This document shows, in pieces, positions 12,550-34,891 of a stretch of 37,852 bases of DNA. The notes beneath the pieces were generated by a model. That model did no database searches and was not told the origin of the DNA. It was given only the letters and a program-made list of their open reading frames with translations. Location: positions 1 to 37,852 of the forward strand of contig DASZRK010000039.1 in assembly GCA_035549195.1 (NCBI GenBank), in the 5' to 3' direction. The stretch is from a bacterium (GTDB lineage: Bacteria > Oederibacteriota > Muellerivitia > Muellerivitales > Muellerivitaceae). Each line of letters starts with the position of its first letter. The stretch's first letter is position 1. The position numbers and the translations under genes were made by a program.

Positions 12550-12583
12550 GGAAACCTCTCAAAAGGGTATAAACGAAAGGCAT

Positions 12584-12772
12584 TTAACCACAGAGGTCAC
12601 AGAGAGCACAGAGGGAAAATGATCTTAGTAAAAATATGGATAGAAAAGGCATTGGTACGACGATAGGGACTGATAACGGCGATGGATGGTAGGACTTATC
12701 AGAAATGACTGGTTTGATCGGCGTATAAAAATGGATCTGATCTTCTCTGCGTTCTCTGTGCCCTCTGTGGTT
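12584..12772. repeat. Inverted-repeat element, 9-nt unit family (ACAGAG type)
   Basis: The left arm at 12584-12615 reads TTAACC then three ACAGAG cores every 9 nt. The right arm at 12745-12772 is its complement (two ACAGAG cores and one GCAGAG). About 130 bp of AT-richer DNA lies between the arms. The element begins 15 bp after the dapF stop codon and ends 34 bp before the ilvD start, so it fills the whole gap. The copy at 34791-34891 is related. Confidence 0.8.
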
Positions 12773-12786
12773 CGATCGTCTTCGTT

Positions 12787-13680
12787 TTACTTCGAGTTCT
12801 TTTCCAGGGTCTCCAAGAGCTCGCCGGTCACCGTGCCCAGGGCGATCTCCTCGACGGGTCCCCGCATGGTCAGTTCGAAATCGGGGCTCACCTTCAGGAA
12901 GAGGTCCCCGCCGGGCATGTGGAGCGTCAGGTCGCCGTCGGCGCGGCCGGTCTTCACGCAGACCGCCGCCACCGCGCAGGAGGAGGAGCCGGAGGCCAGC
13001 GTATAGCCCGCCCCGCGTTCCCAGATGCGGATGTCCACTTCCTTGCGGTTGCGGGGCACGGCGAACTGCACGTTGGTGCGGTTGGGGAAGAGGGGGTGCT
13101 TTTCCAGGATGGGGCCCACCTCATGGGCCATTTTCTCGGCGGTCTCGACGTCCTTCACGAAGACCACGCAATGGGGGTTGCCCATGGACACGCAATTGAT
13201 CTCCAGACCCTCGCCATCCGGGAGGATGGGGAACTTCTTGCCCAAAACTTCGGAGTCCGTATTCGGGACGTTCACGGGGATCTCGCCGGCCTTGAAGTGG
13301 GCCTTGCCCATATCCACCGTCACCGAGGGGGCCTTGCCGAGCATCACGTGGAGCTGGGCCTGCACCTTTCCCCCGGCGGTCTCGATCTCGAAGAAGGTCT
13401 TTTCAGTGTAGCCGTGCTCGAAGAGGAACTTGCAGAAGATGCGAAGGCCGTTGCCGCTCTTCTCGGCCTCGCTCCCGTCGGGGTTGTAGATGCGGAGCTT
13501 CGCCAGCGATGAACCGCTCTTCTCCAGGGCCAGGATGCCGTCGGAGCCCACGCCCGTGTTTCGGTTGCAGACCCGGATGATGTTCTCGGGGGTCAGCTTG
13601 AAGGAGAGCACGGCCGGGTCCATGACGATGTAGTCGTTGCCTAAGCCGTGCGACCGGACGAATTGGTTCTTGGTGAGCAT
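12787..13680 (-). CDS. dapF: Diaminopimelate epimerase homologue with Ser in place of both catalytic Cys
   Basis: 297 residues, a little over the family's usual 270-280. DapF interconverts LL- and meso-diaminopimelate for lysine and peptidoglycan. The fold markers are clear: HGLGNDY (11-17), GSDGIL (45-50), YNPDGSEAE (65-73), SMGNPH (165-170) and WERGAGYT (220-227). The first catalytic site, normally EMCGNG, reads EKSGNG (Ser75; codon AGC). The second, normally ACGTG or ACGSG, reads ASGSS (Ser230; codon TCC). Each is a clean in-frame codon, with no sign of frameshift. Either serine supports the proton transfer in this branch, or the reaction differs. Cys-to-Ser mutants of classical DapF are nearly inactive as racemases. 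Start ATG 13680 is preceded by GGAGG (complement of 13682-13688). Confidence 0.9.
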   Translation of the reverse strand: MLTKNQFVRSHGLGNDYIVMDPAVLSFKLTPENIIRVCNRNTGVGSDGILALEKSGSSLAKLRIYNPDGSEAEKSGNGLRIFCKFLFEHGYTEKTFFEIETAGGKVQAQLHVMLGKAPSVTVDMGKAHFKAGEIPVNVPNTDSEVLGKKFPILPDGEGLEINCVSMGNPHCVVFVKDVETAEKMAHEVGPILEKHPLFPNRTNVQFAVPRNRKEVDIRIWERGAGYTLASGSSSCAVAAVCVKTGRADGDLTLHMPGGDLFLKVSPDFELTMRGPVEEIALGTVTGELLETLEKNSK

Positions 13681-13827: not shown

Positions 13828-14487
13828 ATGACCGAAAAAGACGCAAAAGATTTTTTTGCCCAAAAGATCATCAGCGCGGCTGGATGGGAAAACATTCCGT
13901 TCGATGATTTGGAGCGGAAAATGCTTTATTGGTCGGCGGAACATGAAGATGCTGAATTGCAGGAAAAGTTCTCCTCCCTTCACGATGAAGTGGAATATGA
14001 AAAAAAAGTCCAGCGCCTTCTTCGGCAGTCCTTTGCACGCGATTTAAAAGAAAATGCCGAACAGGTCGCTGGATATAAAGATGCTTATATGGTATTGAGC
14101 CAAGGTGACCACTATCTATTGGTGATGCTCAATGATTCGATCGGGAACAAATTAAGGAAGTTTAGTTTTTTTGGTGGCTTGGATACGAGGAAAGAATTCC
14201 TGGATTTTTTTCAATATCTAAAGCCTCTTTTGAAGCCGGGGAAATCGCGCGGAAAGGCCGGGCTTGTTTTCAGAATAGTTATTGGTCTCGTTTCGCTGTG
14301 TTTTCTTTATTTACCGATTTTGGCTTTTGTTCAGCATGGAACGAGAGATTTTTCTAAAGCGGGGAGCGATTCGAACTTTTTAAAAATACTAACTTCGTTC
14401 GGATTGATATTAGGATTTATTTGTTATTGGGGCGAGGCGACGTTTAAATATATTCTCCCGTGGTGGATGTGGAGCCGGTTTAAATAA
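13828..14487 (+). CDS. Uncharacterised membrane protein, low GC
   Basis: 219 residues from the ATG at 13828 (purine-rich AGAGAGA upstream, weak). I do not recognise a named family. The N-terminal 150 residues are charged and mostly helical (TEKDAKDFFAQKII ... MLYWSAEHEDAELQEKF), followed by two membrane segments at about 155-176 and 190-212 and a C-terminal PWWMWSRFK. The N-terminal half is probably cytoplasmic. Its base composition is clearly lower in GC than that of its neighbours, with A/T-ending codons, which suggests recent acquisition. It is divergent from dapF and its stop overlaps the convergent YfhO-FkbM gene by 8 bp. Confidence 0.75.
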   Translation: MTEKDAKDFFAQKIISAAGWENIPFDDLERKMLYWSAEHEDAELQEKFSSLHDEVEYEKKVQRLLRQSFARDLKENAEQVAGYKDAYMVLSQGDHYLLVMLNDSIGNKLRKFSFFGGLDTRKEFLDFFQYLKPLLKPGKSRGKAGLVFRIVIGLVSLCFLYLPILAFVQHGTRDFSKAGSDSNFLKILTSFGLILGFICYWGEATFKYILPWWMWSRFK

Positions 14488-17400
14488 CTCGTTTTATAGC
14501 GAAAATATTTGTGTAAGCCCCGTTCTTCCAATCCCTTTTCATAAGTTGGGCGGATGTGACGGGGCTGAGCTTCTTTTCCTTCTCTGAAATCTCCGACAAT
14601 TTGAACCCTAGGGCCTGAAGAGTCGCTAGGAACTTCTTGGGATCGTTACCGCAAAGCTTGATGGAATCAGGCGAGAATTCGGTGATGAGCTTGAGGCCCT
14701 TTCCGGCCTTGATGGTTCTTTTCATCCCGGCCAAGGCCAGGGGCTCGGCGCCCTGGATGTCCATCTTGATGAAGTCCACTTTCCTTTTTTTCAAATAAGA
14801 ATCCAAGGTCAGGGTCCCGATGGTCACGGATTCCCGCCCATCCCCCGAATCATAGACCCGGTGGTCGCCCCGGTTCTTAGGATTGAGGAACAGCTTGGTC
14901 TTTCCGTTCTTGTTCGAGAGGGCCTTGTTGACCAGCACCACGTTCTTGTAGCCGTTCTCTTCCACGTTCTTCTTGAGCAGTCCGAAGTTCGTCGGGTCGG
15001 GTTCAAAGGCATAAACACGGCCTTGGGGTCCCACCCGGCGCGCCGCCAGGAGCGTGTAGTAGCCGATATTGGCGCCCACATCCACCACGGTCTGGCCGGG
15101 CTTGATCTCTTTTTGGAACAACTCGGTCTCGAAGGGCTCATAGACCCCGCGCCTGCCCAATTCCAACGTGTCCTTGTCGTCCAGCCATAGGGTGTGGCCC
15201 AAGACCGCCACTTTCTTGGGTTTAAAAAGGCCGAACAGGAGGTCGTAGGTCCAGCGCAGGACCTTGATGCGGCCCAGTCCATGCCCGCCGATGGAGTAAT
15301 AGATCCCCTGTAAAAGGGCATAGAAAGGGTTCCGCATGCCGAGGACCCGTCGCAGGTAAAAGCAGAAGCCGATCAAGGTCAGCAGGACCCAGGCCATGCC
15401 GCCGTAGAAGAGGGGCTTCGCCCACTTGGGCTCGAAACGGAACTCGACGGAATGTTTGCCCGCCGGAAGGTCCAGGGCCCTCAGGAAATGGTCCGCCGTG
15501 AAGATGTCCGCCGGTTGGCCGTCCACGAAGGCTTTCCAGCCGGGGAACATCACTTCACAGAAGACCACCAGGTTGGGCTTGTCCAGGCTCAACAGGAAGA
15601 ATTGATGGTCGGTGTCCTCGGTGACCAAATGGCAATCGAGCTTCGCGGGGGAGCCCTTCACGGCATAGAAAAGGTCCCCGCCGGAGGCGACATAGGCTTG
15701 CTGGGCCGCGTCGAAACCAGGGGTCCGCATGGCGGCCAGGACCTTGTCGGGTGGTCGGCCATAGAGGACCTCGTCCGGAGCATAGGCCAGGGGAAGGGGT
15801 GGCTGGTGTCGGTAGAAATAGTATGGCCCGTGTCTTTCTTCGGCGAACCCGGGGATGGCGGCCAAGCGCGACCGGGAGAAGATCCCGCCGATGGCTCCCA
15901 ATTGGAGCTGGGCCCGCAAGGGAAGGGCGATGATGTCCTGCTTGGCCCTCAGGACCAATGGGTTATAGCCGCCCCAGTTCTTGACCTTCAGGACGCAGGA
16001 GGCGTTCTGAGGATAGGCCAGCAGGTAGGGCCGTCCCCCGACCTGGATGGGGTAGCCCGTCCGGGTGTCGAAGAAGACGACCCTTTGAGGTCCCAGTTCT
16101 TGGGCGGCTTCCGGGATCCCTTTCGAGTTTTCCCGGAAATCGAAATTGGAAACGGGCCCGGGCTGGAAATCGTCCCAGCCGCTCAGGAGCAAGGGCGCGA
16201 CCAGTCCCAGGGCCATCAGGCCCCTTCCCCAACCCGTGATCCTTGGCCGCCAGGCCGCCAGGAAGATCCCCAAAAGGACCGATCCCAAGGCGATCAACTC
16301 GAATCGGTCCGGGGATGGACGCCAAAGGGCGGCGAGATAAAGAACGAGCCCATAGACCAGGGCGGAATGGAAGAACGGTTTGGAGAGGCGCGGCCCCTCC
16401 TTTCCGTCCTCGAAGGCCCCTTCGAAACCGAAGGCGACCAAGGCGGCCATGGGCAGGACGAAAAGGAACAAGAAGCGATAGGGAACGTGAACGTAAGAAA
16501 CGCCCGGAAGGAGCTGGCAAAGGACGCGATGGAGGGGACTGTATCGCCCCAGGGAAAGAAGAAGGGCCGCTGCCGCCCACAGGCCAAGCCCCAAGGCGGG
16601 CGCAGGGCCCTTTCGCCGGAAGGCCCAAAAGGCCAGGAAGGGCGCCCAAATGCCCAGGTAGCCGAAGTTCCCGATCATTCCCGAATCGCGTGGATCGCTG
16701 CCGACCTGCAGGGCTTCCGCCATGGCCTGGCCCTGGGGCAGGCCGAAGCGGGGCAAAAGGAATTGGTAAAGGGTCCTGGGGTCCAGGGGATAACGGGTGG
16801 AGGCCTCGTAGGCCTGGCCGGCGGTCCCACGGTCACAACGGGAGATGAATTCCAGACCGGGGATGGCTTGGAGGAGGAGGGGGAGCAGCCCCCAAACAAG
16901 CAGGGCCAACACCCTCAAGTTTGGGCGGGTCCGGGCCTTCCACCCGCGCCAAAGCAGGTATCCGACGAGCGCGTAGAAGGCCCCCAGGGACACTTGGGGG
17001 CTCCCGGCCAGGAAGAGGTTCGTGAAGACGAGGCCGAGCCAGAACGCGCGCGGGGCCTTGGGCTCTTGGGTCAGGCGCTCCGCCAGGAAGAAACACCAGG
17101 GTAACCAGGCGAAGGCGGCGATCACGGGCGGGTGGATGATCTCGATCCAGAAGAAGCCCGAGAGAGCGAAGGTGAGGGCGCCCAGGCGGCGGGACCTGCG
17201 GGAGAGCCCCAGGGCCCCCAGCCATAGGTCCGTGCCCCACGCGCCCCAAAAGAGGTGGAAGGCGGAGAAAAGGGTCATCCCCAGGGTCAAGGAGAAGGGT
17301 AGGGTCAACCAGGTGGCCGGATAGAGCGTCATGCTCTGGGGATCGGCGAAGAAGGGCTGTCCGCCCAGGTGGTAGGGGTTCCAGAGGGGGAAGTGCCCTT

Positions 17401-17566
17401 GGGCCAGCTGGTCCTTGAGGAAAGCCCGCCAGGGGCCGAATTGGGCCAGCAGGTCGTTGTCGAAATAGGCCTGCCCCAGGAAAAGGCAGTGGAAGAAGGC
17501 GATGAGGGCAACGCCCAGGTAGAGAAGGGGGGAAGAACTTCCGGTGTCAGGCTTGGGTCGGTTCAA
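14480..17566 (-). CDS. Fusion of YfhO-family membrane protein and FkbM methyltransferase
   Basis: 1028 residues from TTG 17566, preceded by GAGGG nine bases upstream. This start makes the N-terminus align residue for residue with the paralogue upstream (25 residues to IAFF in both); the ATG at 17605 has no ribosome site. Residues 1-740 are a complete YfhO/GT-C-like protein: many membrane helices, a DND (36-38) acidic pair in the first loop, GHFPLWNPY, and a C-terminal beta domain (FPGWKAFVDGQ). After the last helix (about 722-737), followed by arginines and hence cytoplasmic, residues 750-1028 are a full FkbM methyltransferase: VDVGANIGYY (828-837), AFEPDP, KMDIQGAE (935-942). YfhO proteins transfer sugars from lipid carriers; FkbM enzymes O-methylate, often sugars. 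The fusion could link glycosylation with methylation of the same glycan. Confidence 0.88.
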   Translation of the reverse strand: MNRPKPDTGSSSPLLYLGVALIAFFHCLFLGQAYFDNDLLAQFGPWRAFLKDQLAQGHFPLWNPYHLGGQPFFADPQSMTLYPATWLTLPFSLTLGMTLFSAFHLFWGAWGTDLWLGALGLSRRSRRLGALTFALSGFFWIEIIHPPVIAAFAWLPWCFFLAERLTQEPKAPRAFWLGLVFTNLFLAGSPQVSLGAFYALVGYLLWRGWKARTRPNLRVLALLVWGLLPLLLQAIPGLEFISRCDRGTAGQAYEASTRYPLDPRTLYQFLLPRFGLPQGQAMAEALQVGSDPRDSGMIGNFGYLGIWAPFLAFWAFRRKGPAPALGLGLWAAAALLLSLGRYSPLHRVLCQLLPGVSYVHVPYRFLFLFVLPMAALVAFGFEGAFEDGKEGPRLSKPFFHSALVYGLVLYLAALWRPSPDRFELIALGSVLLGIFLAAWRPRITGWGRGLMALGLVAPLLLSGWDDFQPGPVSNFDFRENSKGIPEAAQELGPQRVVFFDTRTGYPIQVGGRPYLLAYPQNASCVLKVKNWGGYNPLVLRAKQDIIALPLRAQLQLGAIGGIFSRSRLAAIPGFAEERHGPYYFYRHQPPLPLAYAPDEVLYGRPPDKVLAAMRTPGFDAAQQAYVASGGDLFYAVKGSPAKLDCHLVTEDTDHQFFLLSLDKPNLVVFCEVMFPGWKAFVDGQPADIFTADHFLRALDLPAGKHSVEFRFEPKWAKPLFYGGMAWVLLTLIGFCFYLRRVLGMRNPFYALLQGIYYSIGGHGLGRIKVLRWTYDLLFGLFKPKKVAVLGHTLWLDDKDTLELGRRGVYEPFETELFQKEIKPGQTVVDVGANIGYYTLLAARRVGPQGRVYAFEPDPTNFGLLKKNVEENGYKNVVLVNKALSNKNGKTKLFLNPKNRGDHRVYDSGDGRESVTIGTLTLDSYLKKRKVDFIKMDIQGAEPLALAGMKRTIKAGKGLKLITEFSPDSIKLCGNDPKKFLATLQALGFKLSEISEKEKKLSPVTSAQLMKRDWKNGAYTNIFAIKRVI

Positions 17567-19835
17567 CCTTGGGTTCCCTCTTTCCGAAAAGCAGGAAGGC
17601 CCCATAGAGCAGGGTGCCCAGCACCCATATTAACCCACCCCAGGCCAAGGGTTCGGCCCAAAGGGGTCGGTAAAGGAACTCGACCTGGTGGGGCCCTGCG
17701 GGCAGGGAAAGGGCGCGGAAGGCATGGTCGGCGGTCAAGATCGCGGCGGGTCGGCCGTCCACCTGGGCCTTCCAGCCCGGATACATCACCTCGGAGAAAA
17801 GGACGAGACCGGGGCGGTCCATCGTGATCTGGAAGTCTTGGTGGTCCGTCCCTTCCGAAAGGATGGAGTAGGCGAAGCCCTTATGAGGGCCTTTGGCATC
17901 GGCCAGTCCGGGGGGCAGGGTGCCTTCCAGGAAGGCCTGCTTCCTGGGGTCGAAGCCCGGGCTCTTCATGGCCGCCAGGACCTGGATCCCGTCCGGCAGC
18001 GCGGCCACTTGATCGGGAGCCCAAAGACGGTCCCCGGGATCCTTCGGGAGATAAAGATGGATGTTGCCCAGGGACTGGTCGGTGAAATCGGGCGAATCGG
18101 CCATGGGCCGGGAGCCCACCACGGCTTGTACCGCCATCAGGCGGAAATAGGTCAGTAGGGGCAGTTGGCGGATCTCCGAGGCTTGGGTGAGCACGATGGG
18201 GTTATAGCCCGCGCTTTGGGAGATCCCCAGGGCCATGGGCCCGTCCTGGGGGAAGGTCCAACCATAGAAGCGGCCGTTCATCTCCACCGGATAGCTCAGG
18301 TCCTGGGTGAAAAAGAAACGTCCCTTGTCCCTTTCGGCCTTGAGGGCGCTGAAGGCGGGGAAACGGGTCTCCAGGTCATAATTGGAAGGAGGGCCCAGGC
18401 TGAAGTCGCCCCAACCGCTCAGGAGCAGGGGGAGCAACAGCCCCGCGCCCAGGAAGATGCGCCCCAGGGGCTTCCAGGTCCGGGTCGCGAGCCCCAGGAG
18501 GATCCCGACGCCGCCCAAAACAAGGGCCAACATCTCGCGCCAAGCCAGGTCCGGATGGGATAGTCCCAACAAGAACAGGAGCAGGGCGTAACCGCCCGCG
18601 GCCCAGGCCCAGTTGGAACGGGCGGGTGTCTCCTCCATCCAGCGCTCCAGGGTCTGGAAGCCGAAGGCCGCCAGCACGCAGCCCACCAGCACATAGGCCT
18701 GGATGATCCGGAAGGGGGCCCGGCTCAGGTCGATGCCGGGAAGGAGCATGCATTCCAGCCGGTGCAAGGGGAAGAAGCGGCCCCAGGCCGACAGGAGGGA
18801 AAGGGCGCCCAAGCCGCTCAGGAAAAGGAGCAGGCTTTTCTCCTTGCGCCGGAAAGCGAGCGCGAAAAGGAAGGGGGCCCAGATGCCGATATAGCCGAAA
18901 GCCCCGAGAAAGTCGTTGGAGTAATACACGGTATCCGTGATGTTCTGGATGGCGATCTCGATGGTCTGGCCTGGGGGCACTCCCAGGGCGGGATAGAGCA
19001 ATTCATAGGTACTGGAGGGCGGCATGGAGAAGAGCGAGTTGAAGTTGTCGTAGGTCTGGCTGGCGTCGCGGCGGTTGGAGTATTTGGAGAACTCATAGGC
19101 GGGGATGAAATGGATGAGCAGCGGCGCGCCGCCCAAAAGGCCCGCCAGGACCACCGCCGGGGCCTTCTTCCAAAGCCCGGGCAGGGGGGGGAGCGACGGG
19201 TCCCGCTTGAGGAGCCGGAAGAGGAAATAAGGAAGGCCGGTATAGAGCACGGTGGTGGTGGATTGGAAGTTGCCGCTGCAGAAGACCAGCGCGAAGGTGA
19301 GCCCCGTGAGGAAGGCCCAGGCGGCGGTCCAGCGTTGGGTGAGGCGCTCCAGGCAGAAGAGCACCCAGGGGAACCAGGCATAGGCCGCCAGGATGGGCGG
19401 GTGGATGATCTCCCACCAGAAGGTACCCGAGAGGGCGAAGGTGAGCGCCCCCAGGCGCGCGGCGTTGTCGCTGAGCCTCAGGGATTTGAGCCAGAGGTGC
19501 ATGCCGAGGGCCGCCAGCACCATGTGCAGGAAGAAGAAGACCGAGAGCCCATAGGGAACGGGGAAGAGCAGGGTCGGGTAGAGCAACGGGTAGGCCATCA
19601 TCACGTTGGGGTCGGCGAAGAAGGGCTGGCCCCCGAAGAGGTAGGGGTTCCAGAGGGGGAAATGGCCCTGGGCCAACTGGTCCTTCACGACGGCGCGGAA
19701 GTGGGCGTATTGGTTCAGCAGGTCGTTGGCGAAATAGGCCTTGCCCAGGACCAGACAAGGGAAGAAGGCGATGAAGGCCACGGCGGTGTAAAGGCCCAGG
19801 GACGTCCAGAAAGCGCGGGCGGCGGTCCGGTCCAT
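17547..19835 (-). CDS. YfhO-family membrane protein (GT-C-like)
   Basis: 762 residues, with about a dozen hydrophobic helices, an AND acidic motif in the first loop (36-38), QGHFPLWNPYLFGGQPFFADPN and HPPILAAYAWFPW. The C-terminal soluble domain has VMYPGWKAQVDG and ends soon after the last helix. This is the paralogue of the YfhO half of the next gene but without the methyltransferase. Family members in Firmicutes add sugars to teichoic acids using lipid-linked donors; here the acceptor is unknown. The ATG at 19835 has TAGGG seven bases after the stop of the glycosyltransferase gene upstream, so the genes are coupled. The downstream gene starts 20 bp before its stop. Confidence 0.9.
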   Translation of the reverse strand: MDRTAARAFWTSLGLYTAVAFIAFFPCLVLGKAYFANDLLNQYAHFRAVVKDQLAQGHFPLWNPYLFGGQPFFADPNVMMAYPLLYPTLLFPVPYGLSVFFFLHMVLAALGMHLWLKSLRLSDNAARLGALTFALSGTFWWEIIHPPILAAYAWFPWVLFCLERLTQRWTAAWAFLTGLTFALVFCSGNFQSTTTVLYTGLPYFLFRLLKRDPSLPPLPGLWKKAPAVVLAGLLGGAPLLIHFIPAYEFSKYSNRRDASQTYDNFNSLFSMPPSSTYELLYPALGVPPGQTIEIAIQNITDTVYYSNDFLGAFGYIGIWAPFLFALAFRRKEKSLLLFLSGLGALSLLSAWGRFFPLHRLECMLLPGIDLSRAPFRIIQAYVLVGCVLAAFGFQTLERWMEETPARSNWAWAAGGYALLLFLLGLSHPDLAWREMLALVLGGVGILLGLATRTWKPLGRIFLGAGLLLPLLLSGWGDFSLGPPSNYDLETRFPAFSALKAERDKGRFFFTQDLSYPVEMNGRFYGWTFPQDGPMALGISQSAGYNPIVLTQASEIRQLPLLTYFRLMAVQAVVGSRPMADSPDFTDQSLGNIHLYLPKDPGDRLWAPDQVAALPDGIQVLAAMKSPGFDPRKQAFLEGTLPPGLADAKGPHKGFAYSILSEGTDHQDFQITMDRPGLVLFSEVMYPGWKAQVDGRPAAILTADHAFRALSLPAGPHQVEFLYRPLWAEPLAWGGLIWVLGTLLYGAFLLFGKREPKVEPTQA

Positions 19836-34790: not shown

Positions 34791-34891
34791 TTAACCACAG
34801 AGAGCGCAGAGTTCACAGAGAGGGTAAGGCCGAATGGCCGTTAAAAACAGCCCTTGTGGCTTTTCTCCGTGTTCTCGGTGCCCTCGGTGGT
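34791..34891. repeat. Inverted-repeat element, 9-nt unit family (ACAGAG type)
   Basis: The left arm at 34791-34824 is TTAACC then ACAGAG, GCAGAG and ACAGAG cores every 9 nt. The right arm at 34864-34891 has ACCGAG, ACCGAG and ACGGAG cores in the complement, so the arms have drifted. It begins 11 bp upstream of the radical SAM start and ends 10 bp beyond the stop of the preceding gene. Confidence 0.72.

Follow-up and report, generated by a model that had tools for sequence, protein, structure and literature searches.

A widespread clade of DapF homologues with serine at both catalytic cysteine positions: candidate thiol-free diaminopimelate epimerases

Diaminopimelate (DAP) epimerases of the DapF family are described by a textbook two-cysteine mechanism, and the locus reported here raises the question of whether a DapF with serine at both of these positions can still be a working enzyme. 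The window, by which we mean the whole stretch of DNA that was analyzed (37,852 nucleotides), belongs to a genome of candidate division FCPU426 (3.2 Mb, 97.9% complete, a draft in 80 contigs). In the initial annotation, one of its genes was read as a DapF homologue in which serine replaces both catalytic cysteines. This was taken for a functional variant and not decay, one that might reflect an unusual epimerase mechanism, a changed substrate, or a paralogue accompanied by a second DapF at another locus.

The window encodes a DapF variant with serine at both catalytic positions

The dapF-like gene occupies positions 12787 to 13680 on the reverse strand and encodes 297 amino acids from an ATG start with no internal stops. 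Its product scored 237.4 bits over residues 6 to 283 against the NCBIfam DapF model TIGR00652, above the curated cut-off of 114.65, and matched DAP_epimerase (PF01678), the only Pfam family found, at 187 bits with two domain copies. The model for the bifunctional DapF/glutamate racemase (NF038284) gave only 71.9 bits, against a curated cut-off of 350. Residues 71 to 79 read EAEKSGNGL and residues 228 to 236 read LASGSSSCA. When the protein was aligned with crystallized DapFs by HMMER, a check that the initial annotation had proposed, Ser75 fell on the column of the first catalytic Cys (Cys75 in Anabaena DapF, Cys73 in H. influenzae DapF) and Ser230 on that of the second (Cys224 and Cys217, respectively). 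Their codons, AGC at 13456 to 13458 and TCC at 12991 to 12993 (both on the reverse strand), can be read directly, and the coordinates and residue numbers first given for the gene were right. The reading frame, the TIGR00652 score, and the alignments to solved DapFs bear out the double replacement. The protein lacks the catalytic cysteine pair of the family and is a DapF variant, not a canonical Cys-dependent DapF. It departs from known DapFs in its catalytic residues and shares their fold, substrate site, and pathway. We also considered Cys235 as a replacement catalytic Cys and ruled it out, since canonical DapF has an equivalent residue (ACGTGACA) and many Ser/Ser members carry Ser at this position.

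The predicted structure retains the DAP-binding site

The AlphaFold2 model of the protein (pLDDT 97.2) has the DapF fold and, in agreement with the PF01678 matches, two pseudo-symmetric DAP_epimerase domains. Its nearest fold according to Foldseek is inhibitor-bound Anabaena DapF (9mro, rmsd 2.0 Å). In the model, Ser75 immediately precedes helix 76-88 and Ser230 precedes helix 231-243, as the catalytic Cys residues do, and both serines are thereby predicted to lie at the N termini of two opposed central helices. Among the top structural matches are the engineered H. influenzae DapF mutants C73S (2Q9H) and C217S (2Q9J). These are single laboratory mutants, designed for slowed catalysis, with Ser at one catalytic position of an otherwise Cys/Cys enzyme, whereas both serines of the window protein are natural, conserved, and set in clade-specific surroundings. 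Proline racemases were 10 to 16% identical to the window protein and ranked far below the DapFs.

In Anabaena DapF, DAP is contacted by Asn13, Asn66, Asn164, Asn197, Gly76, Asn77, Glu215, Arg216, Gly225, and Thr226 (PMC12039745). The window protein keeps these contacts as N15, N66, N168, N203, G76, N77, E221, R222, and G231, the sole change being Ser232 in place of Thr226, which retains the hydroxyl. This bears on the suggestion of a changed substrate, under which a racemase, epimerase, or eliminating enzyme of DapF fold would act on another amino acid and an unrelated enzyme would epimerize LL-DAP. Histidine racemase and O-ureidoserine racemase are earlier cases of DapF-fold proteins that were given a new assignment, and the Ser/Thr enzyme of the proline racemase superfamily, the 3-hydroxyproline dehydratase B9K4G4, is an eliminating enzyme (PMC4113996). 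However, all DAP contacts are kept, including Arg222, Glu221, Asn66, Asn168, and Asn203 at the distal end, and a dehydratase would find no leaving group on DAP. Taken with the pathway context described below, the conserved contacts disfavor a changed substrate, and we regard it as unlikely. HisR/CntK and the O-ureidoserine racemase DcsC share fold and two-base logic with the window protein and have different substrates; HisR and CntK depend on both cysteines, unlike the window protein, which has no cysteine pair.

The serine pair is conserved across about 20 phyla

As had also been proposed, we searched for further Ser/Ser homologues. All relatives from FCPU426 and allied families carry the same pair, in KSGNG and ASGSS, at 43 to 88% identity, and the DapFs of FCPU426 metagenome-assembled genomes (MAGs) are 84% and 61% identical to that of the window. 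When 85,000 species genomes were scanned with the window DapF, a query biased towards the Ser/Ser type, at least 574 relatives were returned, of which the best 80 are all Ser/Ser. The trait is clade-wide: 103 distinct clade proteins carry the pair, isolate genomes included (e.g., Tangfeifania diversioriginum DSM 27063, Maribellus sp. CM-23, and Apibacter mensalis). The clade spans about 20 bacterial phyla, with members in Bacteroidota, Nitrospirota, Dadabacteria (listed under Thermodesulfobacteriota), Rokuibacteriota, Methylomirabilota, Aquificota, Bacillota, Pseudomonadota, Planctomycetota, Gemmatimonadota, Myxococcota, Chloroflexota, Dictyoglomota, Latescibacterota, Hydrogenedentota, Armatimonadota, Verrucomicrobiota, Sumerlaeota, and one cyanobacterial MAG. 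A diverse set of 289 nearly complete genomes held at least 13 Ser/Ser genomes outside the phylum, in seven families, a figure that is a lower bound since not every DapF of the set was read. With a draft in 80 contigs and named relatives that are MAGs, one might suspect a sequencing, assembly, or alignment artifact, but the recurrence of the same residues in so many distinct proteins leaves this explanation a negligible probability, and clade-wide conservation rules out an isolated mutation or assembly error.

In a tree built without the catalytic motif columns, the KSGNG/ASGSS proteins formed one group (29 representatives, SH-aLRT 98) apart from the Cys/Cys proteins; the Ser/Ser lineage is old and well supported. 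Four further Ser/Ser proteins (L239, L244, L254, and L259) fell elsewhere on long branches. The tree suggests that the double change arose independently several times, although a single origin for all Ser/Ser proteins was not rejected (p-AU 0.48).

Comparison of 88 Ser/Ser with 77 Cys/Cys proteins identified Ser75, Ser230, Gln205, Ile81, Lys74, Ser233, and Ile219 as the best separators. Lys74 (codon at 13459 to 13461; this and the following codons on the reverse strand) is Lys in 87 of the 88 clade representatives and in none of the 77 Cys/Cys proteins, which usually have Met there. Gln205 (13066 to 13068) is likewise found in 88/88 and 0/77. The clade is invariant as well at Tyr17 (13630 to 13632), where Cys/Cys proteins mostly have Phe, and at Pro67. 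Ser233 (12982 to 12984) stands where 75 of the 77 Cys/Cys proteins have Gly; in Anabaena DapF, the backbone NH of the corresponding Gly227 contacts the second catalytic thiolate, and no basic residue lies within 4 Å of the catalytic sulfurs (PMC12039745). The near-invariant Lys beside Ser75 is, at the level of sequence, a notable difference from that enzyme and does not imply an orientation toward the site. Compared with canonical DapFs (Anabaena 9MRO, H. influenzae 1GQZ, and Arabidopsis 3EJX), the window protein thus shares fold, two-domain architecture, DAP contacts, pathway context, and a mostly single copy, and differs in both catalytic residues and in Lys74, Tyr17, Gln205, Ile81, Ser233, and Ile219.

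Lys74 is not an obligate partner of every Ser pair. The four proteins outside the clade, each the sole DapF of a nearly complete genome, read VSGNG, MSGNG, ISGNG, and WSGNG, and a member on an IMG/VR viral contig (L113, 2923 to 3768), which lies downstream of a serine recombinase gene and is probably host DNA beside a prophage end, has EQSGNG in place of EKSGNG. Natural single-serine DapFs also exist, both Cys/Ser (L208, L222, L231, L020, and L029) and Ser/Cys (L016 and L237), and in most cases each appears to be the sole DapF of its genome.

The Ser/Ser protein is usually the only DapF and is under selection

We found no second PF01678 or DapF-family protein, canonical or otherwise, in the window genome, which refutes for this organism the idea of a paralogue beside another DapF. 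Five close relatives, each at least 97% complete, likewise have no DapF other than the Ser/Ser protein, and the same holds for the 13 Ser/Ser genomes from seven other families in the diverse sample. In 39 of 45 genomes of the clade, TIGR00652 matches nothing else; five also encode a Cys/Cys DapF (Clostridium sp. LS, a Paludibacter MAG, two Pseudomonas, and one Planctomycetes MAG), so that the paralogue idea does hold for a few genomes, and one carries an additional Ser-type copy that is broken. Such a broken second copy (G095:C19:90392-90898, L268) lies near the intact dapF in a Burkholderiales MAG. In Pseudomonas nitroreducens (L279, 3010 to 3867), the Ser/Ser gene is flanked by a urea transporter gene and one for a sodium:dicarboxylate symporter, with a Cys/Cys DapF encoded elsewhere. 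This copy may have a different role, and its setting is a further point for action on another substrate, against which stands the usual status of the Ser/Ser protein as sole DapF.

Among FCPU426 relatives, dN/dS was about 0.1 to 0.24, which indicates that the window dapF is under purifying selection, and across the clade Ser75 is encoded by both AGY and TCN codons. Together, these observations fit long-term selection for serine itself. The proposal of a functional variant and not decay is therefore well supported at the level of sequence, by clade-wide invariance of the pair, low dN/dS, an intact substrate site, and the usual lack of another DapF.

Pathway context calls for an epimerase

DapL produces LL-DAP, and LysA requires meso-DAP. 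In the window genome, dapB, at a contig start, is followed by a gene for an FAA hydrolase and then by one for a DapL-type aminotransferase, and lysA lies at the start of another contig. The aminotransferase scored 586.6 bits against a cut-off of 593.25, and that of a relative, in which the cluster lysA-dapA-dapB-FAA hydrolase-dapL is intact, scored 599.7. No plant-type DapL (TIGR03542) was found above cut-off in FCPU426, where the TIGR03540-type gene fits instead. The window genome has no diaminopimelate dehydrogenase (Ddh), and none was found in the 33 genomes searched; MurE was present in all 33, and LysA scored above cut-off in 31. Nearly every MurE that was read, that of the window genome included, has DNPR, which we take to be the motif of the DAP-adding enzyme; one of 30 loci gave no motif call. 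Since DapL supplies LL-DAP and LysA consumes meso-DAP, an epimerase is expected in FCPU426, and the Ser/Ser DapF is the only fitting candidate. In other lineages, the gene adjoins those of the pathway directly: dapL and/or lysA in Bacteroidota, and a DapL-type gene in a Chloroflexota MAG. This adjacency and the lack of Ddh also speak against a Ser/Ser enzyme acting on another amino acid.

The same context weighs on the reading of the protein as a slow or inactive DapF relic with a non-catalytic role, LL-DAP being tolerated in the wall or epimerized at a low level by other enzymes. E. coli is viable without dapF, so that sole-copy status is no strict proof of activity. Moreover, LL-DAP is built into the wall of such mutants, according to work cited in PMC6721243. 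Single replacement of Cys by Ser also all but abolishes the activity of a relative. Nonetheless, a relic would hardly be expected to keep the whole substrate site and both serines strictly across about 20 phyla at the dN/dS values given above, or to coexist with a LysA that needs meso-DAP, and we judge this reading very unlikely.

A serine-based epimerase is the best remaining explanation

Taken together, the sequence and pathway evidence makes it quite likely that the window protein is a working DAP epimerase that converts LL-DAP to meso-DAP without a cysteine pair, using Ser75 and Ser230, for lysine and peptidoglycan synthesis in this member of FCPU426. The evidence favors the epimerase function more strongly than the proposed serine chemistry. 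One serine, as an alkoxide or via a relay, would take the alpha proton, and the other would return a proton from the opposite face; the pKa values of the serines may be adjusted by helix dipoles and by Lys74, Tyr17, Gln205, and Ser233, which are specific to the clade. The details of this chemistry, whether alkoxide, relay, or help from Lys74, are speculation.

That serine is far less suited than cysteine to acid/base catalysis counts against activity. So does the loss of most activity in the C67S and C209S variants of a DapF-fold histidine racemase (PMC11602996), as do a report, as cited in PMC5885031, that the paired cysteines of M. tuberculosis DapF are crucial and the dehydratase activity of the Ser/Thr pair noted above. 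In favor of activity, the natural Ser93/Cys236 4-hydroxyproline epimerase (B9JQV3) of the same fold superfamily is active (PMC4113996). Both B9JQV3 and B9K4G4 retain activity with a natural Ser at a catalytic position; they differ from the window protein in family and substrate, and B9JQV3 keeps one Cys. The 4-hydroxyproline epimerase has a Ser-positioning Asn three residues past the Ser, where the window protein has Gly78.

On balance, we favor the broader proposal that a thiol-free, cofactor-free amino acid epimerase with a Ser/Ser pair for 1,1-proton transfer performs DAP epimerization in a considerable part of bacterial diversity, where the clade-specific Lys74, Tyr17, and Gln205 would allow serine to be the carbon base. 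Since the clade is widespread and its protein usually the sole DapF, the two-cysteine mechanism is probably not valid for all DAP epimerases. Of the readings first offered, an unusual epimerase mechanism is the best candidate that remains. Our full-text search, mostly outside subscription journals, turned up no paper on a naturally occurring Ser/Ser DapF, which does not in itself prove novelty; the pair is common in nature, and we found no biochemically proven DapF that carries it.

If the proposal is true, a thiol pair is not required for DAP epimerization, and the Ser/Ser enzymes would allow the pKa question to be addressed directly. Bacteria of the clade would be predicted to be insensitive to thiol-directed DapF inhibitors and their enzyme to the oxidative switch that C. 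glutamicum DapF is reported to have, and an absent Cys pair would be unsafe ground for calling a DapF inactive.

Surroundings of the window gene

The window dapF lies outside the lysine cluster, which counts against the epimerase reading. It has ilvD on one side and an open reading frame without a Pfam match on the other, a neighborhood that is uninformative. At 14480 to 17605 on the reverse strand, the window encodes a 1041-residue protein with a C-terminal FkbM methyltransferase domain and no Pfam match in the remainder. Inverted paired copies of a ACCACAGAGGNNACAGAGNNCACAGAG repeat occur at 12571 to 12787 and 34794 to 34891. The first pair lies between ilvD and dapF, one arm touching the dapF stop codon. 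With about 70 half-sites genome-wide, against none for the reversed control pattern, the repeat looks from its sequence like a dispersed palindromic element.
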